A stretch of DNA of 31,890 nucleotides from a virus, in the IMG/VR virus record IMGVR_UViG_3300008624_000042, positions 1 to 31,890 of that record. One strand, 5' to 3'. The notes under the pieces were generated by a model that saw only the letters and a list, made by a program, of their open reading frames with translations, had not been told where the DNA came from and did not search any database. Shown here piece after piece: positions 11,841 through 31,890 of the stretch (positions within the stretch are counted from its first letter, which is position 1; each line of letters opens with the position of its first letter). The translations under genes and the position numbers were made by a program.

Positions 11841-11842
11841 CA

Positions 11843-16825: not shown

Positions 16826-16834
16826 GATGAGAGG

Positions 16835-18223: not shown

Positions 18224-18234
18224 ACACGAGTGAA

Positions 18235-18260: not shown

Positions 18261-18269
18261 CCGACATTC

Positions 18270-18301
18270 AAAAGCTGTGATGCAGGTGTAGCTTTTTGTT
18301 T
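18270..18301 (+). terminator. Intrinsic terminator, right arm
   Basis: AAAAGCT (18270-18276) pairs with AGCTTTT (18290-18296) and runs into TTTTTGTTT on the plus strand. It is the counterpart of the left-arm terminator; the inner loop differs and pairs less well. Its presence suggests that plus-strand transcription through the broken copy once ended, or still ends, here. Confidence 0.6.
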
Positions 18302-18313
18302 CGGGGTCGGGTG

Positions 18314-18655
18314 TTAAACTTCCTCGCCCTTCATCGCAAAACGAAAAGGCTTTTCTCTTTCAGACTGTGCCTTTGATATGGCAATAGATACCTCAGTTAC
18401 CATTAGCTCTTGGAATGCTTCAGCTATCGGTTGGAGGGCGTAGCCTATTTCCATTACGTCGTCATGCGCATCTTCATTGCCCCATTCCTCTGCGAGCTTA
18501 ACGAGAGCAGAGCTGCAAAGATCGAGCGCGACGGCAGTGTTTAGAACTTCTTCCATGCGTTCGTTGAGATTATCCGATGCGGTATCTTCGACCACGGTGT
18601 TCTTGATCATGGTCTTATATCTTCCCCATCGGGATAGCGTGGTCTCTTTTTTCAT
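18314..18655 (-). CDS. Small helical protein of the early region
   Basis: A 113-residue protein of unknown function. The chosen ATG has a strong AGGAGA site and starts 41 bases inside the preceding exonuclease gene; a later ATG (MIKNTVVEDT) has a weaker site. The product is acidic and helical (NERMEEVLNTAVALDLCSSA, QPIAEAFQELMV), with no recognised motif. Its stop codon lies in the 17-mer that ends the inverted duplication. It is the last gene of the continuous minus-strand unit. Confidence 0.6.
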   Translation of the reverse strand: MKKETTLSRWGRYKTMIKNTVVEDTASDNLNERMEEVLNTAVALDLCSSALVKLAEEWGNEDAHDDVMEIGYALQPIAEAFQELMVTEVSIAISKAQSEREKPFRFAMKGEEV

Positions 18656-19295
18656 TGTCTTCTCCTAGTAGTTTTTCGTATTGACTTAAAGCTTCTTCGA
18701 TAAGCAGGTTATCACACATGGTGAGCATCCTGTAAAACTTGACGCCTTCAGCAAGGATCTTTTCCTGCATGGTGGGATTCTCCTCAAGCTCAATATGGAA
18801 TACTGATTGTCCTCCACAGAGAACATAGAACTCCCATGATGGCAAACCGAATACCATCATGTAGGTCTGGGCTTGAGTCTGGTAGTAGATCGGCACTCCT
18901 TCTCTCCACGATTTCTTAGAGAAGGTGCCGATGTTTTTAATCTCAAGGCCACCGACAATCTTGTCTCCTTTGAGGATGAGCCTGTCGGGTGATGCTGCGA
19001 GCCAAGGGTAATCGGGATGACGAACCTGATGCCCTTTGTCCCAGTCCTTAACTGGGTCAAAGATTGTATGCTCGTCGTCACAGTACCGTTCAGCGTAGAC
19101 ATCTGCGATAGCGGATTCGAGCTGTGTTCCCCAGAACATTGGCTCGTTTACTTTGACTTCTTTTCCAAGAGCTTTTCTTTCGAGAAGCTGCTGTGGCGTA
19201 GTCCACTTGGAAAAGCCGAGGATGGCTGCGACATCCGAGCCGCCGATGATTTCTCCTCTGTCGATAACTTCCCATTCGAAATCAGTTAGTTGCAT
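18615..19295 (-). CDS. YqaJ-like viral recombinase exonuclease
   Basis: A 226-residue protein of the YqaJ / lambda-exonuclease family, which digests one strand of double-stranded DNA ends to feed single-strand annealing. Visible motifs: GGSDVAAILG (18-27), WGTQLE (55-60), SPDRLI (102-107, catalytic Asp), GGLEIKN (115-121, the E-x-K of the PD-(D/E)XK core) and YYQTQAQTYM (137-146, family helix). The length matches the family. It lies in the same unit as SSB and an annealing-protein candidate, giving a lambda-Red-like set. Confidence 0.88.
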   Translation of the reverse strand: MQLTDFEWEVIDRGEIIGGSDVAAILGFSKWTTPQQLLERKALGKEVKVNEPMFWGTQLESAIADVYAERYCDDEHTIFDPVKDWDKGHQVRHPDYPWLAASPDRLILKGDKIVGGLEIKNIGTFSKKSWREGVPIYYQTQAQTYMMVFGLPSWEFYVLCGGQSVFHIELEENPTMQEKILAEGVKFYRMLTMCDNLLIEEALSQYEKLLGEDNEKRDHAIPMGKI

Positions 19296-19659
19296 TGCTT
19301 AGTCCTTTCAGTTCTCGAATAATATTCTCTGCATCTTCAAGGGTTTTTCTGTGGGTGCAGTACTCTTTCGCATAGAAGCCTTCGCACTTGAATGGCATGG
19401 CGCAGTCAAGAACTGTGACCCACCAGCCTTTCTTGAAGTGCATCTCTCCGTCAACCATTTCCTTTGGTCCACCACCACGATAGGGTTCGGCGTGACCAAG
19501 GTGTGTTCCGCTTCTGGTGTGGACAAGGGTTTTGCCTCTGAGCTTTTTTCCCATGCCGATCATGGCAATCCAATGCGTAGCATTGGCGGCGACATCCAGT
19601 GATTGCTGGATGCGCCATTGCTCATAGTCGTAGTCGATATCGAGATCTTCATCGATCAT
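19282..19659 (-). CDS. Hypothetical protein
   Basis: A 125-residue protein with AGGAGA before the ATG; its end overlaps the exonuclease start by 14 bases. The N-terminus is acidic (MIDEDLDIDYDYEQW). The middle has a Gly/His-rich part (KTLVHTRSGTHLGHAEPYRG) and two Cys in the C-terminal third. No family recognised. Its coupling to the exonuclease suggests co-expression, not necessarily shared function. Confidence 0.6.
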   Translation of the reverse strand: MIDEDLDIDYDYEQWRIQQSLDVAANATHWIAMIGMGKKLRGKTLVHTRSGTHLGHAEPYRGGGPKEMVDGEMHFKKGWWVTVLDCAMPFKCEGFYAKEYCTHRKTLEDAENIIRELKGLSNATN

Positions 19660-19994
19660 GATGTTTCTCCTGTGAATGTTTTGATGAGGTCAACTGTCTT
19701 GCTGCTGAGAACTGAGTCCAGTAGTCTGTCTTCTCTCTCTGCCTGTACAGCGTTGACTGGTGAGTAGCCATCGAGGAATGCCCACTCGTCACGTTCATGG
19801 GTCCACTCTTCTGTGAGGTGGTTGTAGACTTCGGATGCGCTGCGTCCCAAGTACCTACGACACTTGCGACAATCCCATGCGGCATCGATGGTGTTGTACA
19901 GCTCACCACAGCTGCACTCAAAAACGTAGCCGTCTTGGATTGCTTCTACGATGTACTCTGGAAGCGGTGCTGGTTCTGCGTTCTTGTCTTTCAT
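19656..19994 (-). CDS. Small putative zinc-binding protein
   Basis: A 112-residue protein with TAGGAG before the ATG and a four-base overlap with the next gene. Residues 25-50 read FECSCGELYNTIDAAWDCRK followed by CRRYLG, giving a CxC ... CxxC cluster of the zinc-ribbon type. The rest is acidic and helical. Such small zinc proteins are common in phage early regions as nucleic-acid- or protein-binding factors; the specific role is unknown. Confidence 0.6.
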   Translation of the reverse strand: MKDKNAEPAPLPEYIVEAIQDGYVFECSCGELYNTIDAAWDCRKCRRYLGRSASEVYNHLTEEWTHERDEWAFLDGYSPVNAVQAEREDRLLDSVLSSKTVDLIKTFTGETS

Positions 19995-20003
19995 GTTGAT
20001 CTC

Positions 20004-20822
20004 CTAAGTGAATGGCTGAGATATTTCCCAGTCTGCGTACACGGAACGTCCTGATTCTGCTCCGTCCTTAACCCTTAGCGTTAAACTAAATGGCTCCGCT
20101 TGGGGGCCAGCTTTGACTTGGCAGATCACATTGTTCTGCCAAATGTTTCGCTCGTTGCATTCGATCTTTCTCATACCAATGATTCCATCAACTGCTCCGT
20201 ACAGTGAGGAAGATCCACGCATGGAATGGCCAACGCTTTCCTCGTCTGACTTCTTCATCTTCTTGAAGTGGTGATTGATTACCACTGAGCAGAAGGTTTT
20301 ATTTCTGATAGCGATGCACCGTTCCATGACTTGCTTCATGGAGGATGAGTCATTCTCGTCCTCGGCATGAGCGTTGCGTAGGGGATCGATGATGATTAAA
20401 CCTGCACGTTCTTGATCTAAATCAAGAACTGTTCTGATAATCGAATCGGAATCCTGTAGAAGATCCAGTGGTTCGCGGCACCGAATATAGAGCGGTAGAT
20501 CTTTGAGGTCTTCAACGCTCAGGCCCTTGGCTGCTCCTAGTGCGGTGAGTCTAGCTTGGACATTAAAGATTCCATCTTCAAGTAGAAACAAGTAGACTGG
20601 TCTGCGTTCATGGTAGCAAGTGAACTCATGACTGTTGAAGCAATCGGTTCCACTTGCTACGCTGAGAGCAATCTCCAAGACTGCCCAAGTCTTGCTTGTC
20701 TTTGGTTCGCCGCCTAAGACAACAAAGGTGGACTGTTCGATTAAACCTCTGACAGTCCACTCAAGTTTCTTTGGCGGAATGCTGAAGAACTCTGAGGCGT
20801 TTAACATCGTTAGGTTTGGCAT
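20004..20822 (-). CDS. RepA/RecA-like AAA ATPase (AAA_25 type)
   Basis: A 272-residue P-loop ATPase. Walker A is GGEPKTSKTW (37-46), with Ser in place of the usual Gly before Lys-Thr. Walker B is LIIIDPLRN (142-150), and a sensor-like VINHH follows at 181-185. This arrangement matches RepA-like hexameric helicases and related RecA-fold ATPases that load or move along single-stranded DNA. The start at 20822 has AAGGAG eight bases upstream and lies 62 bases inside the sigma-factor gene. It is the only replicative motor-type protein in the window. A purely recombinational role (Sak4-like) is the alternative. Confidence 0.75.
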   Translation of the reverse strand: MPNLTMLNASEFFSIPPKKLEWTVRGLIEQSTFVVLGGEPKTSKTWAVLEIALSVASGTDCFNSHEFTCYHERRPVYLFLLEDGIFNVQARLTALGAAKGLSVEDLKDLPLYIRCREPLDLLQDSDSIIRTVLDLDQERAGLIIIDPLRNAHAEDENDSSSMKQVMERCIAIRNKTFCSVVINHHFKKMKKSDEESVGHSMRGSSSLYGAVDGIIGMRKIECNERNIWQNNVICQVKAGPQAEPFSLTLRVKDGAESGRSVYADWEISQPFT

Positions 20823-21324
20823 AAGCTAACTCCTTCTTTAGTTTACCGAGTACCTTTGCTAGACGTTGGTCAACAGCCTGTCTGCTTATGCCCCACGCCT
20901 TACCTATCTCGGTAGTGTTTTGTCCACAACAAAACCTGCCGAGCATTTCTCTGTCTCTACCATTGAACTCCGAGACTACGGTGTTCAGGTAGATTGTCTG
21001 TTCTGGGTTGGATACGTTAGGATAAAGCAAATCAAGACTACGGTCTATTGGTTTGTGTTTCTTTATCTCATCTCTGATGAAGCTTCGTATCCAATACCAA
21101 GCCCAAACTTGGAACGAAGATTTCTCTTTGTTCCAAGTTTGGTCTGCCTTCACGAGTCCAAGCAGTCCGACCTGACGCAAGTCTTCCTTGCCTCCAGCGT
21201 AGGAATGCGGGACCGTAAAGTTTCTAAGGTAGTAATCAACTATCTTAGAATGGCGTGTAAGCATCAGCTCCGCCGAAGTCATACGACTCCGATGTTTCTT
21301 CTTGCTTTGGTTTTGCTTTGGCAT
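20761..21324 (-). CDS. Phage RNA polymerase sigma factor, sigma-70 family
   Basis: A 187-residue protein from the ATG at 21324 (GGGAG eight bases upstream); 21282 and 21264 are alternative starts. A region-2-like block is seen at about 47-90: EDLRQVGLLGLVKA, then the aromatic FQVWAWYWIRSFIRDEIKK that contacts -10 DNA. Region 4 is at about 112-165, with the helix-turn-helix TEIGKAWGISRQAVDQRLAK that reads -35 DNA. Region 3 is very short, as in minimal phage or alternative sigma factors. It is encoded between SSB and the ATPase, and probably directs host RNA polymerase to late phage promoters; that target is inference. Confidence 0.82.
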   Translation of the reverse strand: MPKQNQSKKKHRSRMTSAELMLTRHSKIVDYYLRNFTVPHSYAGGKEDLRQVGLLGLVKADQTWNKEKSSFQVWAWYWIRSFIRDEIKKHKPIDRSLDLLYPNVSNPEQTIYLNTVVSEFNGRDREMLGRFCCGQNTTEIGKAWGISRQAVDQRLAKVLGKLKKELAYAKPNDVKRLRVLQHSAKET

Positions 21325-21649
21325 CACCACCGCTCCCGATGAAGTGGACTTGATTCGCTACACACTTGGAGGAGAATCTTTCGACTCCATCTTTTCCTGT
21401 GTAGCGATCTGTTTGAAGCCTGCCTTCAACCAGAACTTCTCGCCCTTTGGTTAGGTACTTGCTGCATGATTCAGCTTGATTGCCAAAGCAAACAACCTTG
21501 ACCCATTCAACGGTTTGCTCGCCATCGGACATCTTGCCCGGTGTGGCAACGCTAAGTTGACACACTGGGATTTTACTTTTGGTATTCAACTCAGGATCAG
21601 CGCCAAGCCGACCTGAGATTATCAAACGGTTAAAGCCACGTACTGCCAT
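21245..21649 (-). CDS. ssb: Single-stranded DNA-binding protein
   Basis: A 134-residue SSB with AAAGGAGA before the ATG. The OB-fold pattern is clear: FNRLIISGRLGADPELN, then VEWVKVVCFGNQAESCSKYL and GREVLVEGRLQTDRYTGKDG. A flexible acidic tail (EETSESYDFGGADAYTPF) ends in a Pro-Phe pair like the partner-binding tip of bacterial SSBs. It coats single strands during replication and recombination. The sigma-factor gene begins within its tail-coding part. Confidence 0.92.
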   Translation of the reverse strand: MAVRGFNRLIISGRLGADPELNTKSKIPVCQLSVATPGKMSDGEQTVEWVKVVCFGNQAESCSKYLTKGREVLVEGRLQTDRYTGKDGVERFSSKCVANQVHFIGSGGDAKAKPKQEETSESYDFGGADAYTPF

Positions 21650-21660
21650 AACATTCTCCT

Positions 21661-22227
21661 TTATAGACTAGCCAGCTTAGTCTGACTAGCTTTCTTGATT
21701 TGCCGTTGAACTGCGGCGGGTAGTTCCATGAGGTCATCAGTATGATGGCTCATGATTGACTGGACATTTTGTTCAGTCGTAGCTTCGCGGATCAAAGTCA
21801 TAATGCGTTTAGCATTATCTGAATCTTTCCGTGAAGCTGGTTTCTTTCGGAAGTCATCAGACTCCTCAGAAGAGTAGACACCGTACTGGCGCAGGTTGGC
21901 GAGATGAAGGATAACTTTATCTTCGCCACGTTTCTGTGCCATGCTTACAGGGTAAGCATTCTTGTTGTTGCTGGGCAGGGCTTCGCCAAAGTCCCAGCGT
22001 TCGCGTCCGTCCTGTGTGTAACCACGGACTTTGATTACGACCTCTTTCTTTGAGAGGTCTTGGTGTACGACTTCGGGTTCAGAGAACCTGATGTCCAGCT
22101 TTGCTGCTATCACTTGGCAGGCCGAGTGATAGAGTACCCAAGTCCCGTGGCAATCCCAGATGGATTCCCGTGGGTTAAGGTCGTACTTCTCAAGCAGGGC
22201 TTTGACCTGCGGTTTGATTGTTGCCAT
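21661..22227 (-). CDS. Putative single-strand annealing protein
   Basis: A 188-residue protein with GGAGG before the ATG. A central region reads ERWDFGEALPSNNKNAYPVS, then MAQKRGEDKVILHLANLRQYG and YSSEESDDF. This pattern (G-E, Asn-rich, tyrosine, then A-x-KR-x-x-D and an EE pair) recalls Rad52/ERF-like phage annealing proteins and related uncharacterised families. Its place immediately upstream of SSB, in the unit with the exonuclease, supports a role in strand annealing. The family assignment is by eye only; a generic unknown phage protein is the alternative. Confidence 0.4.
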   Translation of the reverse strand: MATIKPQVKALLEKYDLNPRESIWDCHGTWVLYHSACQVIAAKLDIRFSEPEVVHQDLSKKEVVIKVRGYTQDGRERWDFGEALPSNNKNAYPVSMAQKRGEDKVILHLANLRQYGVYSSEESDDFRKKPASRKDSDNAKRIMTLIREATTEQNVQSIMSHHTDDLMELPAAVQRQIKKASQTKLASL

Positions 22228-22243
22228 TGCTTACCTCCGTTGG

Positions 22244-22555
22244 CTACTTGTAAACATTCATCTTTGCGGCGATCACTTCGCATGGAACGATTCCATGTTT
22301 CGGTGAGTCGGGATCTATCTTGTCGATGCCAGCCTTGAGTACAAGAACTGTGTCTCCTTTCTCGATCTGTTTAACTCCGTCGCTGACAGAGATAACTTCC
22401 CAGATCTTGCAATGGTGCATCTCATTGAGATGATCAGTGCCGATGATCTGGTCGAAGTCGGAAGGGACAATCCCTTTGATGATTGCCCTTCCCTCTGTCA
22501 TGAACACAGGTTGTAATGCCTTGAAATCAAAGCCTCTTTTATACACGTCACGCAT
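22244..22555 (-). CDS. GroES-like small protein (possible phage co-chaperonin)
   Basis: A 103-residue protein starting directly after the preceding stop, with GGAGAG upstream. The second half reads CKIWEVISVSDGVKQIEKGD, then TVLVLKAGIDKI, ending PCEVIAAKM. That order matches the GroES barrel (EV-x-AVG, V-x-x-GD-x-V, final D-I-x-AI) in spacing, and the length matches GroES at about 97 residues. In the first part the T-E-G-R-x-I-I-K-G-I-V-P stretch could be the mobile-loop region. Phages such as T4 (gp31) encode GroES substitutes for capsid folding. Identity is too weak to be sure. Confidence 0.38.
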   Translation of the reverse strand: MRDVYKRGFDFKALQPVFMTEGRAIIKGIVPSDFDQIIGTDHLNEMHHCKIWEVISVSDGVKQIEKGDTVLVLKAGIDKIDPDSPKHGIVPCEVIAAKMNVYK

Positions 22556-23434
22556 TTAACTCTCCTTGTTTTCCATGTTGTGTTTACCTTCCAGTATATA
22601 CTGGAAGGCTTTCTCTGCTTCGGTGCAAGCAGTCTGAAGGATCGAAGGATCTTCTTTGATCTGCTTGTACCAGTGAGCAATGTAAGCAGCCGATTGCTCT
22701 TGGCAATCCATGCTGCTTCCAGTGTAGCCACACAGGTAAGCTGCCGTCATCTCGGCCACGAGTTCTTCGACGCCGTATTGGTGTGAGCCAAAGGCGTCGA
22801 AGTCTGTGATGCCTTCTCTGTTAAGACGAGATGCAGCTCCTGTGCTGTGACCCATCTCGTGAAACAGAGTTGGGTAGTAGTGCTTGGGGTCTGTCAAAGC
22901 AGAAGGAGAAGGGCAGTTGATTCTGTCCTTCTTCGGACTGTAGCTCGCCATGCCTGCAAGGTGGGTGAGCGGAATGTTTTCCCGTTCAAGATAATCTCTG
23001 ATTATCTGTTCGGTCTGCTTTGACTCAGACTGTTCCGGTATCCAGTCAAGAAAGCTGTGATCATCGAAGCAGCATTGATCAAGGTTGAAGACTGACCAAG
23101 ACTTAAAGACTGGATACCAGATTTCTTTTCCGTCTTGATCGAGCCTGTCGGATTTGTTCCAACCATTGTAAACGATGGTTGTTGCCTTCGAGCCTTTGGC
23201 TATGTGTCCCTCACGTTTACGCACTGCGTTAGACGTAAGCCAGTAGGGAGACTGGTAGTTGTTGGTCATAGCTTCGAGGTTCAGGATCAAAGTGTTGAGG
23301 CCACGGTAAACGTGACCGTTAATGCTTTGCTGTTTGAGATAGGGAGACTGCCAAGGCACGACACCTTTCTCAAGCTGAGAAAGAATCGAGGATGTAACTC
23401 CCTGTATAATATCGTCTTTAGTTTTACGTTGCAT
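22556..23434 (-). CDS. ArdC-like antirestriction / zincin protein
   Basis: A 292-residue protein with the two-part ArdC layout. The N-terminal single-strand-DNA-binding domain runs from about 1 to 125 (EKGVVPWQSPYLKQ, YRGLNTLILNLEAM, GSKATTIVYNGW). A zincin-type metallopeptidase domain follows, with HEMGHSTGA at 192-200 and a likely third ligand in EELVAEMTAA. ArdC proteins protect incoming DNA from restriction or occur as anti-defence factors in phages and plasmids. A candidate promoter and a strong inverted repeat lie just upstream, so it may start its own transcript. The substrate is unknown. Confidence 0.8.
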   Translation of the reverse strand: MQRKTKDDIIQGVTSSILSQLEKGVVPWQSPYLKQQSINGHVYRGLNTLILNLEAMTNNYQSPYWLTSNAVRKREGHIAKGSKATTIVYNGWNKSDRLDQDGKEIWYPVFKSWSVFNLDQCCFDDHSFLDWIPEQSESKQTEQIIRDYLERENIPLTHLAGMASYSPKKDRINCPSPSALTDPKHYYPTLFHEMGHSTGAASRLNREGITDFDAFGSHQYGVEELVAEMTAAYLCGYTGSSMDCQEQSAAYIAHWYKQIKEDPSILQTACTEAEKAFQYILEGKHNMENKES

Positions 23435-23452
23435 GATTGTTTACCTTTCTGT

Positions 23453-23481
23453 ACTTTAGTACCTTGCGTTTTCCCAGTCAA
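23453..23481 (-). promoter_or_regulatory. Candidate sigma-70-like promoter for the ArdC unit
   Basis: On the minus strand TTGACT (23476-23481) and TAAAGT (23453-23458) are 17 bases apart, with AT-rich DNA upstream. The spacing is ideal and the -10 has four of six consensus bases. It sits between the terminator at 23564-23602 and the ArdC start, where a new transcript must begin if that terminator works. Confidence 0.4.
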
Positions 23482-23495
23482 CTATCTTATATATA

Positions 23496-23535
23496 TTTAT
23501 GTATGTTGTTTGCAAAAACAAACAACATACATAAA
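23496..23535. repeat. Perfect 17-bp inverted repeat upstream of the ArdC promoter
   Basis: TTTATGTATGTTGTTTG (23496-23512) is exactly inverted at 23519-23535 around CAAAAA. No T-run follows on either strand, so a terminator is less likely than a protein-binding site or a structured leader. A second perfect palindrome (CTAATAAGC TAT GCTTATTAG, 23536-23556) touches it. Confidence 0.7.
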
Positions 23536-23563
23536 CTAATAAGCTATGCTTATTAGCCTTAGA

Positions 23564-23602
23564 AAATCCCACGATCTGTTTACCGTCGTGGGATTTTTTT
23601 TA
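23564..23602. terminator. Bidirectional intrinsic terminator
   Basis: AATCCCACGA and TCGTGGGATT form a 10-bp stem. On the plus strand it is followed by eight T; on the minus strand by TTTTCT. It covers the last codons and stop of the resolvase-like gene and would end the distal part of the minus-strand unit. Confidence 0.7.
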
Positions 23603-23927
23603 TCTCAGCTATGAGATAAAGCAGATGATCCAGTGGAAGTGTTGCCCAGTCAGAGCCTTGATCTTTTCGTGAAACGATCAAGGGGATTTTGCCTCTGTGT
23701 TCTGGGCTGCACTCAGTCAGGTCACGGTTGGCCTGTCGTATCTTACTGTAAACTCTAGGACTTTTACCGTGTGTAACTTCGACCCAATAGTCTGGGACTA
23801 TTAGGTCTGGCTGAAGAGCGCCCATCTTCTGGTTGCCTCTGGCAATATCCTCTCCGAAGATGGGCTTGAGTTTGTCACGGATCAGGCGCTCGTATCTAGC
23901 ACCTTTGTCTCGTTGGCTTTTACCCAT
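23580..23927 (-). CDS. PD-(D/E)XK resolvase-like nuclease
   Basis: I chose ATG 23927 (GGAG seven bases upstream), giving 115 residues, over a longer in-frame start. KGARYERLIRDKL (8-20) carries the N-terminal Glu. PDLIVPDYWVEVTHGK (40-55) carries the Asp and Glu of the PD-(D/E)XK core, although the usual Lys two places after Glu is Thr and a Lys comes later. IPLIVSRKDQGSDWATLPL resembles the end of archaeal Hjc-like and phage Holliday-junction resolvases. It probably resolves branched DNA produced by recombination or before packaging. The variant core should temper the claim. Confidence 0.55.
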   Translation of the reverse strand: MGKSQRDKGARYERLIRDKLKPIFGEDIARGNQKMGALQPDLIVPDYWVEVTHGKSPRVYSKIRQANRDLTECSPEHRGKIPLIVSRKDQGSDWATLPLDHLLYLIAEIKKIPRR

Positions 23928-24138
23928 CGTTAGACTCCAAGATTCTGATGAGGGTTGTAAGTTTTCCGCGAGCGATCTTGACGTGTTCAATGATCTCGTC
24001 CCTCTGCATTTTGCCGGGGATGAGATCTAATCGTTCGCAGGATTTAAGAACTTCTTCTTCGTGTTCCTTAACGAAGTCGTCGATGTCAATCTCTACGTCG
24101 ATGGCTTCGTCGATGTTCATGGTGTGTGTAATGTACAT
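23920..24138 (-). CDS. Small acidic protein
   Basis: A 72-residue protein from the ATG at 24138 (TAGGAG six bases upstream), shorter than the maximal frame. It starts MYITHTMNIDEAIDVEIDID and continues with an acidic helix (FVKEHEEEVLKSCERLDL). It overlaps the resolvase-like gene by eight bases. Unknown function. Confidence 0.55.
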   Translation of the reverse strand: MYITHTMNIDEAIDVEIDIDDFVKEHEEEVLKSCERLDLIPGKMQRDEIIEHVKIARGKLTTLIRILESNDG

Positions 24139-24146
24139 GTTGTCTC

Positions 24147-24692
24147 CTATAAGATCCAAAGGATCTTCATGGTTTGTTCGTCTGCATTAAACTTTAGACG
24201 AAACTTTGTTGAGTCTTTGTTGGCATTGTCGTAGTCGCAGAACTCTTCAAGTAGATCTGAGATCCACTCGTGAAGTCTGTTGCTCCAGCGAGCTTGAGGA
24301 TTCGATACGATGCTTGCGGTCTGAGCAAGCTCAAGGTTCGTATCGAATCCGAACCAGTCATGGACAATGCCATAGTCGAAGTCGTCGTCAAAGGTGAAGA
24401 CTGCTAACGCCTCGCACGTTTCGTCGTAAGAGCTGAAGTCTTTGAGATGCACGTTAAGATCTGTGATCCAGTTGACGTGCGTATCATAGTCAAGACGTGA
24501 GACTTCTGCCTCGCAGCATTCAGTGAAGTCTCCGTCTTTGTAATGTACTTTGAACGTGCCTTCTCCAAAGGGACGGTCAAAGTCTTCTGATGTTTCAGGG
24601 TGATAGGAGAACTTGGGCCAGATCTCTTTGCAGTTAGAACAGAAGTCGATGCTTGCTTCTCCGATGCACTTGCCGTGAATGTCGTAGGTCAT
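24147..24692 (-). CDS. Hypothetical early protein, acidic, Cys-bearing
   Basis: A 181-residue protein with TAGGAG before the ATG. The N-terminus has a Cys cluster (C9, then FCSNCKEIW at 17-25) that may bind zinc. The rest is strongly acidic and aromatic (VFTFDDDFDYGIVHDWFGFD). No family recognised. It is one of a run of small early genes typically involved in host takeover. Confidence 0.55.
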   Translation of the reverse strand: MTYDIHGKCIGEASIDFCSNCKEIWPKFSYHPETSEDFDRPFGEGTFKVHYKDGDFTECCEAEVSRLDYDTHVNWITDLNVHLKDFSSYDETCEALAVFTFDDDFDYGIVHDWFGFDTNLELAQTASIVSNPQARWSNRLHEWISDLLEEFCDYDNANKDSTKFRLKFNADEQTMKILWIL

Positions 24693-24701
24693 GATGTTCT
24701 C

Positions 24702-24995
24702 CTATAGGCTTGAGTAGAGTGAGCGATTCCACATGCTCTCGTAAACTACTTTGACTCTGGTCAATGCGGTTCGCAGTTCCTGAGATGGATTGACTTCGAG
24801 AGCAGACTTGATTTCGATGATGGCAAGGGAGAGTTCGCACATCGCAGACTGTTGCTTGTCGAGTATTGCTTGCTCCATCTCAGCGTAGTCCTGCTCCATT
24901 TGCTCGTAGTCAGACAGCTCATAGTCTGTTGACTTGGCTTCGTTGTCGAGGTGTTTGGTTTGCTGTTCGATTTGTTTATTCTTGAAGTAGCCCAT
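24702..24995 (-). CDS. Small helical protein
   Basis: A 97-residue protein from ATG 24995 (AGGAGG seven bases upstream). It is almost wholly helical with Gln/Glu-rich heptad-like stretches (NKQIEQQTKHLDNEAKST, EQMEQDYAEMEQAILDKQ), suggesting a coiled coil. Unknown function. Confidence 0.55.
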   Translation of the reverse strand: MGYFKNKQIEQQTKHLDNEAKSTDYELSDYEQMEQDYAEMEQAILDKQQSAMCELSLAIIEIKSALEVNPSQELRTALTRVKVVYESMWNRSLYSSL

Positions 24996-25044
24996 GCTGG
25001 CCTCCTGTGTTTTGAGTTTCACGATAAACTATTTAACTAATGCT

Positions 25045-25194
25045 TTAATCGTCAAGAGTTAGAAGCCCGATTACAAATAGGATGAACGCGATTGCGATGC
25101 GGGAGACTGTTACGTCTTGACCTAGTATCCCTGTACACCATGAGGCTGTTGCCATTGTAAGGACAATGGCGACAGCCAATATGAATAGTGTCAT
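25045..25194 (-). CDS. 49-residue protein with two membrane segments
   Basis: A short frame starts with ATG at 25194 (AAAGG about nine bases upstream) and ends TAA at 25045. The product has two hydrophobic spans: MTLFILAVAIVLTMATAS (1-18) and RIAIAFILFVIGLLTL (32-47), joined by a short polar turn, ending in LDD. It fills an otherwise empty gap in the minus-strand unit. It may be a superinfection-exclusion or membrane-remodelling peptide; this is inference. Confidence 0.5.
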   Translation of the reverse strand: MTLFILAVAIVLTMATASWCTGILGQDVTVSRIAIAFILFVIGLLTLDD

Positions 25195-25272
25195 TCTTTA
25201 AACCTTTCAAACGAGGATGAACGAGTTTGCTTCGGCGAATGTAATGAGCCGAAAATATTTTTTCTGGTAGGG

Positions 25273-25623
25273 TTAGGTCTTGGGTTTGCAGAGCATATCA
25301 AAGAGATCGATGATTGGTTTGTTCTGCGCGACGATGCCTTGAACGTAAACGTCTGCGTGTTTCTGCATGTAGTACAGCTCGCAGTCTTTGAACAAGTCAT
25401 CGGGTGTATCCCATTGTTTTCCCTTGAGTTCTCCATCAGTACACTCGATGTCGTAGATGTTGGGAAACTCTGTTTGTTCTCCGACAAGGTGGGCAGGCAT
25501 GAGTCTGTCGCATGATGCTTCGAACGTGTTGCCCCAGTTGTCTTCGCCTTCAATGATGGCAGCGTCGTGACATGAGTCATGAGGTGAGTGCCAAGTAATA
25601 GTAGGCAAGAATGTAGTTGCCAT
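25273..25623 (-). CDS. Hypothetical early protein
   Basis: A 116-residue protein with GGAG eight bases before the ATG. It begins MATTFLPTITWHSPHDSCHD and has spaced Cys/His/Asp residues (CHD, SCDR, IECTDGE, DCELYYM) that might bind metal. No known family. It lies between small unknown genes of the early unit. Confidence 0.55.
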   Translation of the reverse strand: MATTFLPTITWHSPHDSCHDAAIIEGEDNWGNTFEASCDRLMPAHLVGEQTEFPNIYDIECTDGELKGKQWDTPDDLFKDCELYYMQKHADVYVQGIVAQNKPIIDLFDMLCKPKT

Positions 25624-25627
25624 GATG

Positions 25628-25867
25628 TTAGCTCCATTGTGTTAGGTGGTTATCAAGGTCCATCATTAGACCATCGAACTTGTCCTGTGTCATAGATGAA
25701 TCAACCTCATCTTGTATCCATTTAACTAAGCGGTTGTAGTTGTTACCGTTGTAACAATAGAAATGCAGACAGGCTTTCTCTAAGGAAAGCATGTCTGCTG
25801 GTTGGTCATCGAGTCCAAGTCCTCGTACGAATAGCCGTTTGATGTAGCCATTAGTGTGTGGTGTCAT
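25628..25867 (-). CDS. Small hypothetical protein
   Basis: A 79-residue protein from ATG 25867 (GGAG seven bases upstream), five bases before the next gene. The sequence is aromatic and Asp-rich (ACLHFYCYNGNNYNRLVKWI) and probably folds as a small helical domain. Unknown function. Confidence 0.5.
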   Translation of the reverse strand: MTPHTNGYIKRLFVRGLGLDDQPADMLSLEKACLHFYCYNGNNYNRLVKWIQDEVDSSMTQDKFDGLMMDLDNHLTQWS

Positions 25868-25871
25868 GATG

Positions 25872-26081
25872 TTACTCCTGCATCCATGATGCCAAGTGTG
25901 GTTCAGTTGTGTCAAACTCTGGAGGGAGTTCGATGTTGTCAGGGTACTTGTCGCACTGAGGATCAAAGAGATAAGCTTCGTACTGAGCTACACGTTGCTC
26001 GAACTTGTTGCCTTGAAAAGTGTAGGTGTATCCCATGTGTTCGCACCATTGCTTGAATGTAAGTTTGTTGTTGTAGACCAT
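25872..26081 (-). CDS. Small hypothetical protein
   Basis: A 69-residue protein from ATG 26081 (AAAGGAGA upstream). It starts MVYNNKLTFKQWCEHMGYTY and is rich in Tyr, Phe and Pro. Its leader lies next to repeat copy A of the 44-bp intergenic element. Unknown function. Confidence 0.5.
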   Translation of the reverse strand: MVYNNKLTFKQWCEHMGYTYTFQGNKFEQRVAQYEAYLFDPQCDKYPDNIELPPEFDTTEPHLASWMQE

Positions 26082-26096
26082 GATGTTCTCCTTTGT

Positions 26097-26140
26097 TTTC
26101 AATGCCTTGCATTTAACTAAGCGCAGCGTTTGCCTTGGGT
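26097..26140 (-). repeat. 44-bp intergenic repeat, copy A
   Basis: Differs from copy B at two of 44 positions. On the minus strand it covers the last codons and stop of the DUF4326 gene and leads into the ribosome binding site of the next gene. It contains the small palindrome-like AATGCCTTGCATT and the common core GCATTTAACTAAG (plus-strand reading). Confidence 0.8.
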
Positions 26141-26440
26141 GTCGAAGACAGCCTTGCCTTCATCGCTGTGTAACCAAGCGATGGCTGCTGCAAGCACGTC
26201 GCCATGACATGGCAAGGGCTTGCAGAAACAGCCAAGGGTTTTGCCTTTAAGTCCACGGACTTGAAGGACAAAGGACGGGCTGTTACAAAGTTTGTGCCAC
26301 AAATACTTTTTGTATTGGGTGCAAACTTTGTGGTGTGCAGCGGCTGACCGTTCGGTTGGGCGGAAAGGATTTCCGTAGACCGAAGGGCGGCCGATGTACA
26401 CCTGCGCTTTACCATGCTGCTTTATGTTCATGACTTGCAT
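26117..26440 (-). CDS. DUF4326-family protein
   Basis: A 107-residue protein from ATG 26440 (AGAGGAGA upstream). The DUF4326 pattern is visible: VYIGRPSVYGNPF (14-26), a Tyr-rich helix (TQYKKYLWHKLC), then LKGKTLGCFCKPLPCHGD (64-81) and VLAAAIAWL. The CFC ... CHGD cluster suggests metal or nucleotide binding. The family is common in phages and its biochemical role is not established to my knowledge. The C-terminal residues (TQGKRCA) are encoded by repeat copy A, so the repeat was inserted into, or captured with, the gene end. Confidence 0.8.
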   Translation of the reverse strand: MQVMNIKQHGKAQVYIGRPSVYGNPFRPTERSAAAHHKVCTQYKKYLWHKLCNSPSFVLQVRGLKGKTLGCFCKPLPCHGDVLAAAIAWLHSDEGKAVFDTQGKRCA

Positions 26441-26451
26441 AACTTCTCCTC

Positions 26452-26495
26452 TTTCAATGCTTTGCATTTAACTAAGCGAAGCGTTTGCCTTGGGT
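26452..26495 (-). repeat. 44-bp intergenic repeat, copy B
   Basis: Matches copy A at 42 of 44 positions by eye. It lies between the stop of the 65-residue gene and the DUF4326 ribosome binding site. Its right end touches the upstream stop codon. Confidence 0.8.
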
Positions 26496-26692
26496 TAGGA
26501 GATAGGATCTCCGATGCGGTAGCCGATGTTGATGCGTTCGCCATCAGCATCAATGGGATCGATGCCGAGTACGTTCTTGCGGCCATAGATCTCGACGATC
26601 TCTGCGACTACGGAAGTGAAGTCATGACCAAGGTCAAAGGTGAACTGATCGTCGCGGCCTTCGGTAAGGAACACATAGTATATTTGTTTCAT
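26495..26692 (-). CDS. Small protein, first gene of the minus-strand unit
   Basis: A 65-residue protein from ATG 26692 (AAGGAGA upstream). It reads MKQIYYVFLTEGRDDQFTFD, then SVVAEIVEIYGRKNVLGIDP, a compact alpha/beta pattern. It is followed by repeat copy B and preceded by the shorter copy C. Unknown function. Confidence 0.5.
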   Translation of the reverse strand: MKQIYYVFLTEGRDDQFTFDLGHDFTSVVAEIVEIYGRKNVLGIDPIDADGERINIGYRIGDPIS

Positions 26693-26707
26693 GAGTATCT
26701 CCTTTGT

Positions 26708-26732
26708 TTTCAATGCTTTGCATTTAACTAAG
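26708..26732 (-). repeat. Intergenic repeat, short copy C (25 bp)
   Basis: Identical to the first 25 bases of copy B (plus-strand reading), ending in GCATTTAACTAAG. It lies upstream of the first minus-strand gene, where a promoter for the whole early unit is expected. Confidence 0.65.
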
Positions 26733-26756
26733 GGAGGTTACGACCGTTGGTGTCAG

Positions 26757-26963
26757 CATCGCAGATATAGCGGAGCGAAGAAGGCCGAAGGCAGGAGGGA
26801 GCGAAGCGACCGTGGACCATCGGAGATATAGCGAGCGCAAGCGAGCGTAGCAGCATCGCAGATATAGCGAGCGAATGCGAAGCGTGGAACCGCCGGAGGC
26901 ATAGCGAACGCAGGTGAGCGTAGACCCATCGGAGATATAGCGAACGAAGGTGAAGCGTAGAAT
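26757..26963. repeat. Tandem iteron-like repeats
   Basis: Five units begin near 26757, 26818, 26854, 26891 and 26927, a period of 36-37 bases after the first longer unit. Each has a form of CATCGSAGATATAGCGARCG followed by a variable GCGARGCGTRG-type half. A minus-strand frame through them (26753-27016) exists but lacks a ribosome binding site and merely mirrors the repeat. The arrangement resembles initiator-binding iterons. Confidence 0.7.
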
Positions 26964-27858
26964 GCAGTGATGTAAATATATTTATGACAGATAAATATAT
27001 TTATTGCTGGATGCAAACACAGCAGTTGTTTGCTTGAGGTCCAGCGACAAGACGGTGGACTAGCTGAGAGAGATGCGATGGATGTGACACTTGCGATAGG
27101 TGTGACAGCTTTGCTGGCGGAGCTATTGCTGGTGGCGCAGCCATTGCCTCGAAGCCAGTGGACCAGACCTTGGTCTTGTCCGTGTGACTGATGGACCTTG
27201 GTCCGAAGTATAGTCCCGAACGAAGTGAGGGATAGGGATAGGGTGGGAAGATCGGAAGATCGGGAGCCTTGCGGATTAGCTAGTGTTTGTCTTATTTAGT
27301 TTACATAGCTTGTTGGTTAGTAGTGGTGTTGGTGTTGGTGGGTTGTGTTGGTTGTGTTGGGGTTGGGGGTTAGGGGGGGGAGCCTAGAGTAAGTAGGTGA
27401 ATGAAATGGATGAACTTTTTAGTATCAATGAATTAGATAATTTTAATTTAAATAATAATAAATCTAAATAAGATATGGGGTATTTACCCGAGGGTTTTAA
27501 AAAAACAATTATATATATATATTATATATATATAATAATAATGTATATGTAATGTATATGTATTAAGTATAGTATAGTAGGTAAGGGGTTCTCTCTTTCA
27601 CAAAGGGGGGATAGGATACAAGGGGGGATATGGGGGAAGGGAAGGTTAGATATAGGGAGGATAGTTAGAATAAAGAATAGTAAGAGTAAGGTATTCAGAT
27701 TTACTAAAACAAATTAAGTGAGCTACGCTAGTAGTTCATACCTTATAGGATAGGGGCAACGAAGTGGCCCTGTCGGGAAGACCAAGGAAGGGGTCCACGA
27801 CCCCTTCAAAACCCCGTAAATTACACCCCGATGAAATTTTGAAAAGCGAGGTAGGCAC

Positions 27859-28362
27859 ATGTGGGACAAGCCCAGTAAGAAAAGAAAGTACAACATACCT
27901 GAGCAGGAGCGCAGGTGTAAGTACTATCATCCTAACGAAGAGCAGTGCCGAGCATTGAAGATGCTTGGCTATACATACTGCTACTACCATGAGCCTACCT
28001 ACGCAGAACAAAGAAGTGAGAACGGACGGAAAGGAGGAAAGGCCCCAAGGCTTTTGCCTCCGCAGATGCCAGCACCTGAAATGGAAACGCTTGAGCAGGT
28101 GAGACAGTTCGCGGTTGAAACATTGCATCAGGTTCGGACGGGGCATCTTGAGCCACGGACTGCTGCTGTTGTCAGCAGTCTCGTAGCGCATGTTCTTAAA
28201 ACATTACCAGAGGTTGGAGCTGAAGAGGTCAGTGCTGCCGAGAAACTGAGAGGGCTATTGACTGATGACTTTTCCGAATCCAAAAAAGATGAAGATGCTG
28301 GCGAGCCTGTGCAGGATAACAGATCAGGTGAGTGGGAAACCCATACAGTTTCAGGTGTATGA
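27859..28362 (+). CDS. Putative small terminase subunit / DNA-binding zinc protein
   Basis: A 167-residue protein from ATG 27859, with a GAGG element about eight bases upstream. Residues 18-44 hold a Cys/His cluster (RRCKYYHPNEEQC, then YTYCYYH), likely a zinc site. GRKGGKAPR follows. Residues 75-150 are helical and could oligomerise (LEQVRQFAVETLHQVRTGHL, AAEKLRGLLTDDF). It lies directly before the large terminase and overlaps it by 98 bases. Position and a DNA-binding-like N-terminus support the small terminase role. The sequence family itself was not recognised. Confidence 0.45.
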   Translation: MWDKPSKKRKYNIPEQERRCKYYHPNEEQCRALKMLGYTYCYYHEPTYAEQRSENGRKGGKAPRLLPPQMPAPEMETLEQVRQFAVETLHQVRTGHLEPRTAAVVSSLVAHVLKTLPEVGAEEVSAAEKLRGLLTDDFSESKKDEDAGEPVQDNRSGEWETHTVSGV

Positions 28363-29698
28363 GGAACAAGAAAGGATCTTGAAGGCGGCCCACGAATCGC
28401 GGAACATTATCATCCTAAAGAGCAGGCAGATTGGTTGCTCGCAGATTTGTTGTTTTCTGGATGCCGTCTATACTATTCTGAATCCCGGTGCCAAGGTCGC
28501 GGTTGTGGCCGACACGGAACAAAAGGTCCACGGTTTACTGGACCGTGTTCGTGAGGTGTACCGCGATCTTGAAGTACCGCTGAGAATATCTAACCGATCT
28601 AAGATAGTAACGAGAGAAGGATCGGAAGTCCATGCCGTTACTGCTAACGCAGCGAAAGGACAGGAACAATCCAAGGCTGGGAGATCTATGAGCTTCCAGA
28701 TGCTGCACCTTTCGGAGCTGGCGTTCTGGCCAGATCAAGATGCCTTTGGCGCGTTGGCTAGTTCGGCTGGATTGTCTGCACCAATCCTTATCGAGTCAAC
28801 ATCATCTGGTCCCGGCGATTTGATGTGGAGACTTTGGACAGAAAAGAATGAGTTTGCCAAGCTGTTCTTTTCGGTAGAGGATCACCAAGCATATCGATCA
28901 GACCTACCCTTAACAGCAGAAGAGTGGCGGGAGATGCAGGATCTTGGGTTTACAGAACCAAACGCTGCGGCTTGGTTTAAGGAAACCCTTAACAATAGAT
29001 TCCAAGGCCATCTTGTTCGGGCTTTGCGGGAATATCCGCAAAGACCAGAACACGCATTCATGTCGGCGGAGGGAAGATGGATCGACTTAACTCCTCCAGT
29101 GTTGGCACATACAATGATGCAGGGCTTGAAGATATTCAAACCTAAACAACAGCTTGAGGAATATGTTATAGGTGTCGATACAGCTGGAGGCTTAGGCAAG
29201 GACGCAAGCGCCATTGCCGTTATACAAAAAAGCGATTTGTCCCTAGTTGCAACGTGGGTAGACGAGGATGCTACCATTGACACCCTTGCGGATTTCGTAC
29301 GCGCAGCTTATCAAATATATGGTGGCAGTGTAGTTATTGAGTCTAACGGCATCGGGTTGGCGACGGTGCAAGCAGCTAGAGCTAGAGGCATACCAGTGAT
29401 CGAAGCTAAGACTTCTCAGGCAAGACAGTACCAAGGTCTGCTCGCGGTGAAGAGGAAAGTGGAAGATGGCTCACTGGCAGGCCCATCTGAACTAGCCGAA
29501 GAGTGCGACAGCCTTCATGTTAATAGGCATGAGAAGTTTGACGGGAAGAAAGATCTGTGTATGGCGATAGGTTTTTCCTTACTATTTATTGACAAATCTC
29601 CTATGGGAGAGATACCTAAAGAGGAGCCAACTGAAAATGTTTTCTCCCTCAGTAGGTATCATAACAGGCAGAAGGCCGGAAACTGGAGCGAGTTCTAA
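28265..29698 (+). CDS. Terminase large subunit
   Basis: A 477-residue packaging motor. The ATPase part shows a phage-type Walker A (LKSRQIGCSQ, 51-60) and a Walker B ending in the catalytic Glu (FQMLHLSELAFW, 144-155). The RNase-H-like nuclease part begins VIGVDTAGGLGKDASAIAVI (301-320, first Asp at 305) and continues with SVVIESNGIG (second acid) and a late GKKDLCMAIGF. The start at 28265 gives a long overlap with the preceding gene; ATGs at 28289 or 28295 would shorten the N-terminus by 8-10 residues. It ends at TAATG, coupled to the next gene. Confidence 0.92.
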   Translation: MTFPNPKKMKMLASLCRITDQVSGKPIQFQVYEEQERILKAAHESRNIIILKSRQIGCSQICCFLDAVYTILNPGAKVAVVADTEQKVHGLLDRVREVYRDLEVPLRISNRSKIVTREGSEVHAVTANAAKGQEQSKAGRSMSFQMLHLSELAFWPDQDAFGALASSAGLSAPILIESTSSGPGDLMWRLWTEKNEFAKLFFSVEDHQAYRSDLPLTAEEWREMQDLGFTEPNAAAWFKETLNNRFQGHLVRALREYPQRPEHAFMSAEGRWIDLTPPVLAHTMMQGLKIFKPKQQLEEYVIGVDTAGGLGKDASAIAVIQKSDLSLVATWVDEDATIDTLADFVRAAYQIYGGSVVIESNGIGLATVQAARARGIPVIEAKTSQARQYQGLLAVKRKVEDGSLAGPSELAEECDSLHVNRHEKFDGKKDLCMAIGFSLLFIDKSPMGEIPKEEPTENVFSLSRYHNRQKAGNWSEF

Positions 29699-30168
29699 TG
29701 GCAATGGAAGATCCCAATAGAAGCATCATACGCAAGAAGCGGAAGACAAAGAGAAAGCTTCCTCCAGAATATCAGAACATCAGCACCGCAAGAATGGAAC
29801 ACGCCGCAGATCAGCAGAGCTTTGGATCGTGGCTTGGTACATTGCTTGGTGGACTCACGGGCGCGTTCGGCTTCTTCGGTGGCCCCGCTGTTGGGATACC
29901 AACAACATTGGCAGGCGCTAGTCTTGGCAACCAAATCGGTGGCGCTATTGGTGGAGAGGATGCTGTTGCAGCCCAAGCAGACTACTATGCACAGCAGGCT
30001 CAACAAGAATACGATATGAGTAAGTGGGCAGTTCTTGAACAGATGGAGGCTGAGGAGGAAGCTCGTCAGGCCGCAATAGATTTCTCGTTCAAAGAAATGA
30101 TTAACGCAAATACAAAGAAGACTAGCCCGGAGCATACATTTAAAGCAAGCAACTGGAGGAATGCGTAA
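29698..30168 (+). CDS. Glycine-rich, membrane-active-looking protein between terminase and portal
   Basis: A 156-residue protein starting at the TAATG overlap. The N-terminal 30 residues are strongly basic (IIRKKRKTKRKLPPEY). Residues 43-86 form a hydrophobic glycine-zipper block (GSWLGTLLGGLTGAFGFFGG, then GIPTTLAGASLGNQIGGAIG). The C-terminus is an acidic Gln-rich helix (YYAQQAQQEYDMSKWAVL). Glycine-zipper segments occur in phage ejection or pore-forming proteins. Such a protein here suggests an internal virion component made with the portal. Function is not known. Confidence 0.6.
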   Translation: MAMEDPNRSIIRKKRKTKRKLPPEYQNISTARMEHAADQQSFGSWLGTLLGGLTGAFGFFGGPAVGIPTTLAGASLGNQIGGAIGGEDAVAAQADYYAQQAQQEYDMSKWAVLEQMEAEEEARQAAIDFSFKEMINANTKKTSPEHTFKASNWRNA

Positions 30169-30410
30169 TGGATAACGGTGCAATGCTGATCCTTGAAGCC
30201 AAGGATATGGCCGCAGATAAGATGTCAAGCGGCATGGACAAAAAGAAAAAAGAAGAAACAGAAAGCATAGAAGGCGAACTGCTTGATGAACTGAAGAAGC
30301 TTCTTGATGGTTGGGATGATATGGATCATGACTACTACAAGGAACTTAAAGAAGTTTACACGAAGCATGGCGGCGAACTGGAAGAAGAAGAAGTAGAAGA
30401 AGAATACTAA
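30168..30410 (+). CDS. Small acidic protein next to portal
   Basis: An 80-residue protein coupled by TAATG on both sides. It has a Lys stretch (MDKKKKEETESIEGE), a helical Asp/Glu middle and a nearly pure Glu tail (GGELEEEEVEEEY). The charge pattern fits a small assembly factor, scaffold or portal partner. No family recognised. Confidence 0.6.
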   Translation: MDNGAMLILEAKDMAADKMSSGMDKKKKEETESIEGELLDELKKLLDGWDDMDHDYYKELKEVYTKHGGELEEEEVEEEY

Positions 30411-31890
30411 TGGCACTAGACAAAGAAGTAAAAGTAGGACCTACTAGCGAAGCGATTACTTGTGAGCAGCTTATTGAGGAGCTGTACAAGAAAGGCGCTA
30501 CCGCGAGATCTAGGTTCTTAGTCAAGGCAGATCGTAATGAAAGATATGTACACGGTGAGCAGTACCAAGACATCAATCGGCTTACGGGCGTACTGCAAGA
30601 TGTGCCGTGGCAGTCCTACGTTCCAAAGGTTACGGTCAACCTTCTTAGAAACCTTGTGCTTACTTGGACTTCTCGGCTTCTTCGAAACCGTCCATCTGTT
30701 TCTGCTTACCCACATAACGGGGAAATAGCAGACATGACCAGTGCGTCAGCTGCTTCAACGATCATCGAGTTCTTTGAGCATGACATCGATATTGATGATA
30801 TGATGTTCGAAATGGTGTCAAGAGGCTGCGCTCATGGCGTAGGGGGAGTTAAACTTGTTTATGATCCAGACGATGATAATGTTACTTGGGACCCCATTAC
30901 TATCTTTGATTTTGTTATGGACCCACAGAACAATCCGCAAGATTCCGTTTGGCTCATATACGAGAAGTACATTGACGAGGCTGAGGCGAACATGCTTCTA
31001 CGGGAAGCAGGTTCGACAACTAGAGCAACGCCGGAGCAATACTATGTAGGCGTGAATGATTATCGCCAAGGCGTAAAGGTTAGAGAACTCTGGTATCGCC
31101 CAGATCCTAGAATACCAGCAGGACTATACTGCCTTGAAGTCTCAGGCGAGATCACGACTGCAATGGATTATCCCTACATTTTCAAACGCTTAGAGTCTCC
31201 CGGTGACACACAGGAAGAAAGCTTTCTCCCCATCGCACTGTTCACAGTGGACCCAGTTAGAGGTACGGTGTATGGAGACACTTGGGTGAATGATGCTGTA
31301 CCAACACAGCGTCAGATCAACGAAGTGGAATCTACTCTTACCAAACTGAGAAGAGATACTGCGGGAGCAAAGCTTGTTGCGCCCGGATCTATCGCCAACG
31401 CGATAGACACGGGCAATCAGATTTTAAAGGTAGACGATCCGATGCAGGCACAGATGATCCGGTACATGGAGCCGCCTCGCATTAACAATCTTTTGTTTCA
31501 AGACAGAGAGGTCTTGCAGAAAAGAATGTATGATCTCGCTGGGTTAAACGAGTTGATGGTTGGAGCGGAGGCCGCAAAGAGTGGCCAGAGCGCAAAGACA
31601 ATCGCGTACCTCAGCGAGCTGGATGGGATGAAGCAGTCTGGAACAGCGCGGTCCATCGAGAAGTTTTTACTCGAAGCATGGAGAAAGACGCTGGTCTTGG
31701 TGCGTAACTACTACACCGAGCCAAGGCTGCTTACCATTATAGGAGAAGATAATGTCTTGGCTCAAACGAGTTTTCTTGGAACGGATATTGATGGCGTTGG
31801 TCTTCGTCTTGAGCCACGCTCAGGCAAAGCTCGCTATTCTGCGAGCAAAGAAGAAGATATTATCAATCAAAGCAAGATGGGCATACGAGA
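30410..31890 (+). CDS. Portal protein, C-terminally cut by the window end
   Basis: Open from ATG 30410 to the last base (493 codons visible). It starts MALDKEVKVGPTSEAITCEQ. The order of elements matches phage portals: an N-terminal helix with RSRFLVKADRNERYVHGEQY, then VTVNLLRNLVLTWTSRLLRN (the usual stretch after the first strands), GCAHGVGGVKLVYDPD, and PTQRQINEVESTLTKLRRDT (stem/helix region). Near the end KSGQSAKTIAYLSELDGMKQ resembles the clip/wing part of short-tailed phage portals. It makes the dodecameric DNA gate. The missing end should be followed by scaffold and capsid genes. Confidence 0.85.
   Translation, partial: MALDKEVKVGPTSEAITCEQLIEELYKKGATARSRFLVKADRNERYVHGEQYQDINRLTGVLQDVPWQSYVPKVTVNLLRNLVLTWTSRLLRNRPSVSAYPHNGEIADMTSASAASTIIEFFEHDIDIDDMMFEMVSRGCAHGVGGVKLVYDPDDDNVTWDPITIFDFVMDPQNNPQDSVWLIYEKYIDEAEANMLLREAGSTTRATPEQYYVGVNDYRQGVKVRELWYRPDPRIPAGLYCLEVSGEITTAMDYPYIFKRLESPGDTQEESFLPIALFTVDPVRGTVYGDTWVNDAVPTQRQINEVESTLTKLRRDTAGAKLVAPGSIANAIDTGNQILKVDDPMQAQMIRYMEPPRINNLLFQDREVLQKRMYDLAGLNELMVGAEAAKSGQSAKTIAYLSELDGMKQSGTARSIEKFLLEAWRKTLVLVRNYYTEPRLLTIIGEDNVLAQTSFLGTDIDGVGLRLEPRSGKARYSASKEEDIINQSKMGIR

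Follow-up and report, generated by a model that had tools for sequence, protein, structure and literature searches.

A putative clade-specific AT-rich control locus with nearly C-free flanks upstream of the terminase genes of a tailed phage, possibly a replication origin helped by transcription

Introduction

The T4 origins oriF and oriG each combine a promoter and an A+T-rich unwinding element, for which other such elements can be substituted (PMC3016281). In human mitochondrial DNA, the G tracts of CSB 2, which vary in length, act in transcription termination in vitro (PMC5027508). A third system, the rut site, is described as a stretch of 78 nt with C far above G, regularly spaced C and weak folding (PMC6407284).

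Here, we describe the anatomy, strand bias, conservation and variability of a non-coding phage locus that shares features with all three. It is found in IMG/VR virus record IMGVR_UViG_3300008624_000042 of a tailed phage, and "the window" denotes the whole 31,890-base stretch of DNA analyzed. The locus resembles oriF and oriG in its A+T-rich candidate unwinding element and its exchangeable sequence, with transcription adjoining the element in T4, whereas the T4 origins require a MotA middle promoter and phage replisome proteins, and at the locus described here no promoter stands out from chance; C-free flanks are not mentioned in the sections of the T4 source used here (PMC3016281). It shares with CSB 2 a G tract on the non-template strand that varies in length and lies in a control region, here a putative one, but the G runs of the phage are not kept in relatives and the polymerase is unrelated (PMC5027508). 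The resemblance to rut sites concerns the leftward RNA of the locus and is one of sequence and predicted folding (PMC6407284). By titles and abstract starts, none of the literature matches listed dealt with a phage locus of this kind.

A sequence-only reading of the window had drawn attention to a G/T-rich tract with a quadruplex candidate and had suggested an R-loop there that could prime replication. This tract would form the left flank of a clade-specific, AT-rich control locus spanning about 0.5 kb of non-coding DNA, for which the likeliest reading is an origin of replication assisted by rightward transcription through an R-loop (probability about 0.35). In the phage collection, no record matches the 1.7 kb around the locus at the DNA level, and the terminases found are all less than 60% identical (197 records, with 23–27% identity for the 20 listed). 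The locus is an obvious candidate for the starts of both replication and late transcription in the group.

Gene Setting of the Locus

The locus (27222–27700) is located between leftward early genes on one side and rightward terminase genes on the other. The rightward genes are a putative small terminase gene, the large terminase gene and the portal gene, starting at 27859, 28265, and 30410, respectively. The large terminase gene (28265–29698, plus strand) matches phrog_2 (E 2.1e-23), while the small terminase gene (27859–28362, plus strand, 167 aa) was assigned by position only, having no Pfam or PHROG match. The leftward early module, of which the ORF closest to the intermodule gap begins at 26713, encodes a YqaJ/RecE-type exonuclease, an AAA_25 ATPase, a sigma factor, an SSB and an ArdC-type protein. 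The sigma factor gene (20761–21330, minus strand) contains sigma-70 region 2 (Pfam E 1.5e-8). The AAA_25 ATPase matches the ATPase (helicase) part of PHROG families named DNA polymerase/primase (phrog_906), primase/helicase and DnaB-like helicase. No ORF of at least 60 codons (ATG, GTG or TTG start) overlaps positions 27017–27735, and Rfam gave nothing at gathering score in the window (two matches in 26700–27900 have E-values of 3.9 and 4.6).

Between the early genes and the locus, the repeat scan revealed an iteron-like 36/73-bp tandem repeat (26799–26962). The wider segment 26754–27003 consists of such repeats carrying CATCGSAGATATAGCG, followed by a 13-bp AT inverted repeat (26973–27003), and represents a second candidate origin or regulator site. 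Elsewhere in the window, about 590 bp are duplicated (16794–17382 and 17716–18301, 72% identity) in the gap separating the convergent modules, as seen against G002, which matches the window there; Pfam gave no match for a leftward ORF in this area (16844–17617, 257 aa). In comparison with G004, about 2.7 kb seem to be missing between the ends of the record (31890 and 1), which makes a closed genome improbable.

A C-Free G/T Tract and Its Surroundings

The three longest C-free runs of the window (84, 76, and 73 nt) all lie in this one intergenic region. The 73-nt run is the G/T tract (27310–27382, plus strand), which ends in G runs of four, five and eight. The plus strand had been described as containing almost no C and little A for about 70 bases, and the composition of 27310–27380 agrees with this (39 G, 29 T, 3 A, and no C). 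The 3′ end of the tract reads G4-TT-G5-TTA-G8, with GGGGTTGGGGGTTAGGGGGGGG at 27359–27380; the four G tracts claimed for this ending can be formed provided that the last run of eight G supplies two of them. GGGGTTGGGGGTTAGGGGGGGG falls where G4Hunter gives its top score for the window (2.76), so the sequence is quadruplex-prone by prediction, as proposed. The strand asymmetry and the rightward terminase module downstream of the tract are both present as well.

The composition had also been said to be unlike the rest of the window. Indeed, 27310–27380 is the most G+T-rich 71-mer (0.958, against a window mean of 0.512 with sd 0.069) and lies beyond chance as modeled by 200 first-order Markov sequences of the window's length and dinucleotide make-up, where the longest C-free run was at most 52 nt and G+T per 71 bases at most 56 (observed 73 and 68). 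With respect to the lack of C, however, the tract is not unique, as the two longer C-free runs occur in the same intergenic region, at 27507–27590 (84 nt, mostly A+T) and 27620–27695 (76 nt), both on the plus strand by run-length count. Plus-strand C amounts to 10% in 27222–27309, 0% in 27310–27382, 5% in 27383–27580 and 6% in 27581–27700, compared to 20 and 23% in the stretches flanking 27222–27700.

From left to right, the locus begins with an upstream G cluster, GGGATAGGGATAGGGTGGG (27223–27251, plus strand, G4Hunter 1.52), which is also present in the same-species relative L006. One base past the G/T tract, a pattern search with at most one mismatch located a conserved first box, CTAGAGTAAGTA (27384–27395, plus strand). 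It is followed by the AT-rich core (27416–27565), the most AT-rich 150 bp of the window (128/150 A+T), placed between the two G-rich parts of the locus. The core contains a perfect 14-bp inverted repeat (27508–27536), and a conserved element, AAAAACAATTATATATA, is found at 27501–27517 on the plus strand (with at most two mismatches, once each in the window, G002, G004, and L007). A conserved second box, GGGG-T-TCTCTCTTTCAC, was located by pattern search at 27585–27601 (plus strand), and a second G cluster comes after its TCTCTC part (27600–27651, plus strand, G4Hunter 2.28), with counterparts in L006, L007, L008, and L009. A hairpin at the TCTCTC box was considered and rejected (z-scores of −1.63, 0.85, −0.67, and −0.86 in four phages).

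What Close Relatives Retain

A scan with the large terminase (TerL) yielded 13 loci; further scans gave more distant loci and no new close relative covering the region. The locus is fully or partly covered by L006 (in the 22.5-kb G002), L005, L007, L008 (in the 38.2-kb G004), and L009 (in G005), with TerL identities to the window of 100, 100, 82, 74, and 76%, respectively. L006 and L005 belong to the same species as the window. L005 starts at 27584, and the contig of L009 (G005) starts inside the AT-rich part. No relative was confirmed among 65 pattern matches in genome_contigs, a search for same-species records by DNA pattern led back to G002 only, and the small terminase as a query retrieved two same-species records only.

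The composition bias is the best-kept property of the locus. The 200 bp with the lowest C content are located here in all five stretches compared (7 C in the window, 7 in L006, 12 in L007, 10 in L008, and 12 in L009), which also holds across all examined pieces of G002, G004, and G005. The first box CTAGAGTAAGTA occurs once each in the window, G002/L006, L007, and G004/L008 (at most one mismatch) and was not found in G005, whose contig begins further right. The second box is found in its strict form, GGGGnTCTCTC, once each in the window, G002, and L007, and L008 (GGGGATAGTCTCTCAC) and L009 (GGGATGTCTCTCTCAC) have looser versions at the corresponding position; near matches to its TCTCTCTCAC part are found elsewhere in the genomes. 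G clusters adjoin the second box in the window and L006 to L009. From CTAGAGTAARTA of the first box to the TCTCTC box, the distance is 206 bp in the window, 205 bp in L006, 188 bp in L007 and 189 bp in L008, the four sequences that span the locus. The boxes enclose the most AT-rich 150 bp of the window (128), G002 (128), G004 (118), and L007 (119, for the 7,372 bases of its contig covered by the figure), with next-best values elsewhere of 108, 108, 107, and 94, respectively. In G005 the most AT-rich 150 bp lie elsewhere because its contig starts inside the AT-rich part.

This AT-rich core with two boxes at a near-constant distance is the reason for favoring an origin. An A+T-rich unwinding element is indicated by composition in the window, G002, G004, and the covered part of L007, while G005 is cut off inside it, and the phage encodes an SSB and an AAA_25 ATPase, which we also count in favor. 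Under this reading, the core would be the AT-rich stretch between the boxes, and the flanks would be kept nearly C-free on the plus strand. Rightward transcription would yield a G-rich, C-poor RNA with few internal G-C pairs on account of its little C. This RNA could stay hybridized to the C-rich minus strand and keep the duplex open, allowing the AT-rich core to melt, whereupon the phage SSB, the helicase-like ATPase and host polymerase would start there. Transcription through the locus, formation of the hybrid and the replication start are steps that we infer. The exact sequence (GT, GA or the number of G) may vary provided that C is absent, and a quadruplex would be an optional by-product.

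The same boxes could instead bind the phage sigma factor or a regulator, with the AT core as an upstream element and the C-poor stretch as an unstructured leader of the late genes. Such a late promoter is consistent with the phage gene containing sigma-70 region 2, with the position of the locus directly ahead of the rightward terminase genes and with a conserved first box occurring once per sequence. We nevertheless regard it as doubtful, although, like the gate on leftward RNA considered below, it comes close behind the origin reading: the spacing between the boxes varies by 18 bp, consensus promoters are close to their chance number and C-poor tracts flank the core on both sides.

Distant Relatives

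Five more distant records (G006–G010, TerL identity 57–60%) have longest C-free runs of 31–47 nt and lowest C counts of 22–27 per 200 bp, compared to runs of 62 nt in G004, 84 nt in the window and 105 nt in G005, with 7–12 C per 200 bp. In nine distant loci, A+T reached at most 107/150 within 2.2 kb upstream of terL. The first box (at most one mismatch) was found in none of the 14 distant stretches scanned, and a two-mismatch match to the second box in three of them (L027, L029, and L057). Among the stretches compared, C-free flanks, an AT-rich core and the boxes accordingly occur together in this clade only.

C-free runs as such are also present elsewhere, which speaks against the origin reading. 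L027 (774–836) and L029 (1384–1446), with a TerL identity of 59% and not among the five distant records G006–G010, both carry a 63-nt C-free G/T tandem repeat with a unit of about TTTGGTGGTTGG, situated between leftward ORFs about 1.4 kb upstream of terL. G/T repeats therefore occur in the wider group. L028 has a layout similar to that of L027 and L029 and no G/T repeat. G005 contains an additional 61-nt C-free run at 2807, far from the locus.

What Varies Within the Locus

The window and G002 differ at 18 positions across 11869–31871, and 15 of these lie within 27248–27659; a second alignment with an 8.6-kb part of G002 places 15 of 17 differences in the locus. The 15 differences comprise 10 substitutions (three A/G and no C/T) and five single-base indels, and they include G-run lengths and an inter-run spacer. 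In L006 the G runs are altered to G3-TT-G4-CGGA-G7, in L008 a GA repeat takes the place of GT and no G4Hunter match of at least 1.2 is found there, and L007 has no counterpart of the left G/T tract. L005 is identical to the window over 27584–31890.

Since G runs change, GA replaces GT in L008 and L007 lacks a counterpart, both sequence and quadruplex appear free to vary at the G/T tract. The earlier proposal had named variable or absent G runs in relatives as the result that would speak against it, and this is what L006, L007, and L008 show (the contig of L009 starts too late for the comparison). A conserved quadruplex as a functional element is thus not supported by these relatives. The L008 GA tract without G runs and the missing left tract of L007 likewise count against the origin reading.

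Selection for the downstream G clusters as such was also rejected, as dinucleotide shuffles equal the best G4Hunter score in 14–49% of cases in the window, L006, L007, L008, and L009. For the G/T tract, the best score was reached by 3% (window) and 14% (L006) of dinucleotide shuffles. Two figures point the other way: mononucleotide shuffles equal the downstream-cluster score in 0.2–0.3% (window and L006) and 10–36% (L007, L008, and L009), and for the G3-run count of L009 the corresponding shares are 3.6% (dinucleotide) and 0.15% (mononucleotide). The G clusters are mostly a product of composition. As the only reason for the missing C, decay of C to T on an exposed plus strand was rejected: the repeat of L008 is GA instead of GT, and the 15 locus differences include no C/T change.

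We should note that part of the G-run variation may be technical, as these are metagenome assemblies in which G runs are possibly error-prone. The window and G002 agree near-perfectly outside the locus and a segment at 9436–9626, which does not settle how large the technical share is. This second diverged spot (191 bases) contains 23 of the 24 differences in 9364–11969, surrounds the start of the gene at 9471–10319 and possibly results from recombination.

Concentrated differences, a third of them single-base indels (5/15), would also be expected of low-complexity drift, in which repeats and G runs change by slippage (or by assembly or read error) in a functionless non-coding gap. L005 has its contig end (27584) and L009 its start within the locus, and the unrelated G/T tandem repeat of the distant L027 and L029 indicates that such repeats arise elsewhere too. 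Slippage, however, leaves unexplained why the window and four relatives, whose repeats differ (GT and GA), all lack C at this place and on the same strand, and it does not account for the conserved boxes and the AT core; we consider drift unlikely.

The Leftward RNA

A C-free plus strand gives a C-rich RNA when transcribed leftward. Rut sites are C-rich, nearly G-free and unstructured in RNA, and the RNA from 27305–27382 (minus strand) has 41 C and one G in 78 nt. The locus might therefore contain a putative rut site at which host Rho halts leftward transcripts before the early operon, transcripts that would begin either inside the AT-rich core or as antisense RNA of the late genes. In all five stretches, the 78-nt segment in which C most exceeds G is leftward RNA of the locus, with C:G values of 41:1 in the window, 41:3 in L006, 40:2 in L007, 39:1 in L008, and 32:0 in L009. 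Segments with a C/G ratio of at least 8 are confined to leftward RNA and, across these five stretches, to the locus. Both the GT repeat of one phage and the GA repeat of another yield a C-rich, almost G-free leftward RNA. When both strands were tiled in 401-nt segments, the leftward RNA of 27201–27601 had the weakest fold (−46.5 kcal/mol, against a median of −122.9). It also contains 78 nt with C/G above 1 and C spaced at 11–13 nt in chains of six to seven, in keeping with the RhoTermPredict rule (PMC6407284).

The mild form of this rule is passed by 8764 of 31813 leftward windows, and only the extremity of the locus is therefore special. Moreover, a Rho gate alone leaves the AT-rich core and the boxes unexplained and, as a consequence of composition, cannot be counted independently of the R-loop reading. 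R-loop and rut consequences of a C-free plus strand are inseparable by composition alone, and both fit equally well. We take a Rho gate as a tentative possibility.

It is conceivable, though we would not expect it, that selection in this clade acts on the lack of C in one strand to either side of a melting element, with the sequence nearly free, and that the locus is an origin or transcription gate that reads composition rather than sequence. If so, comparable loci of other phages would escape motif searches but would be found by searching for C-free strands.

Origin Hallmarks and Remaining Alternatives

Several observations count against the origin reading. Sigma-70-like sites in 26600–28300 number four against 2.7 expected, although the phage's own promoter type may differ. 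The GC3 skew of leftward genes (plus coordinates) is +0.19 to +0.22 in the window, measured on the genes in 18314–26713, but −0.10 in G004 and −0.10 in G005 (three genes). One-way replication as deduced from third-position skew was dropped, since the skew is not repeated in G004 or G005. Among the distant records, the skew is +0.11 in G009, negative in G006 and G008, and spans zero in G010, while G007 has one leftward ORF. The window shows no cumulative skew minimum at the locus. With up to one mismatch allowed, the window's locus contains no match to the DnaA box TTATCCACA, and L007 has one there, at 293, with one mismatch. An R-loop extension zone is expected to have at least 40% G over at least 100 nt; such a zone is found only after the 27229 cluster in the window and in its L006 copy.

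The position directly upstream of the terS–terL genes also fits a cos or pac site at which packaging would start, recognized by the product of the adjacent small terminase gene. To our knowledge, a C-free composition is not a feature of cos or pac sites, and the contig ends of relatives differ (L005 at 27584, L007 and L009 elsewhere), which makes a packaging start improbable. Within this intergenic gap, L008 has a long inverted repeat, seen by eye at approximately 3713–3830, whose arms (TGACCAAACCAAAAGCCCA and the complement) are separated by about 80 bp.
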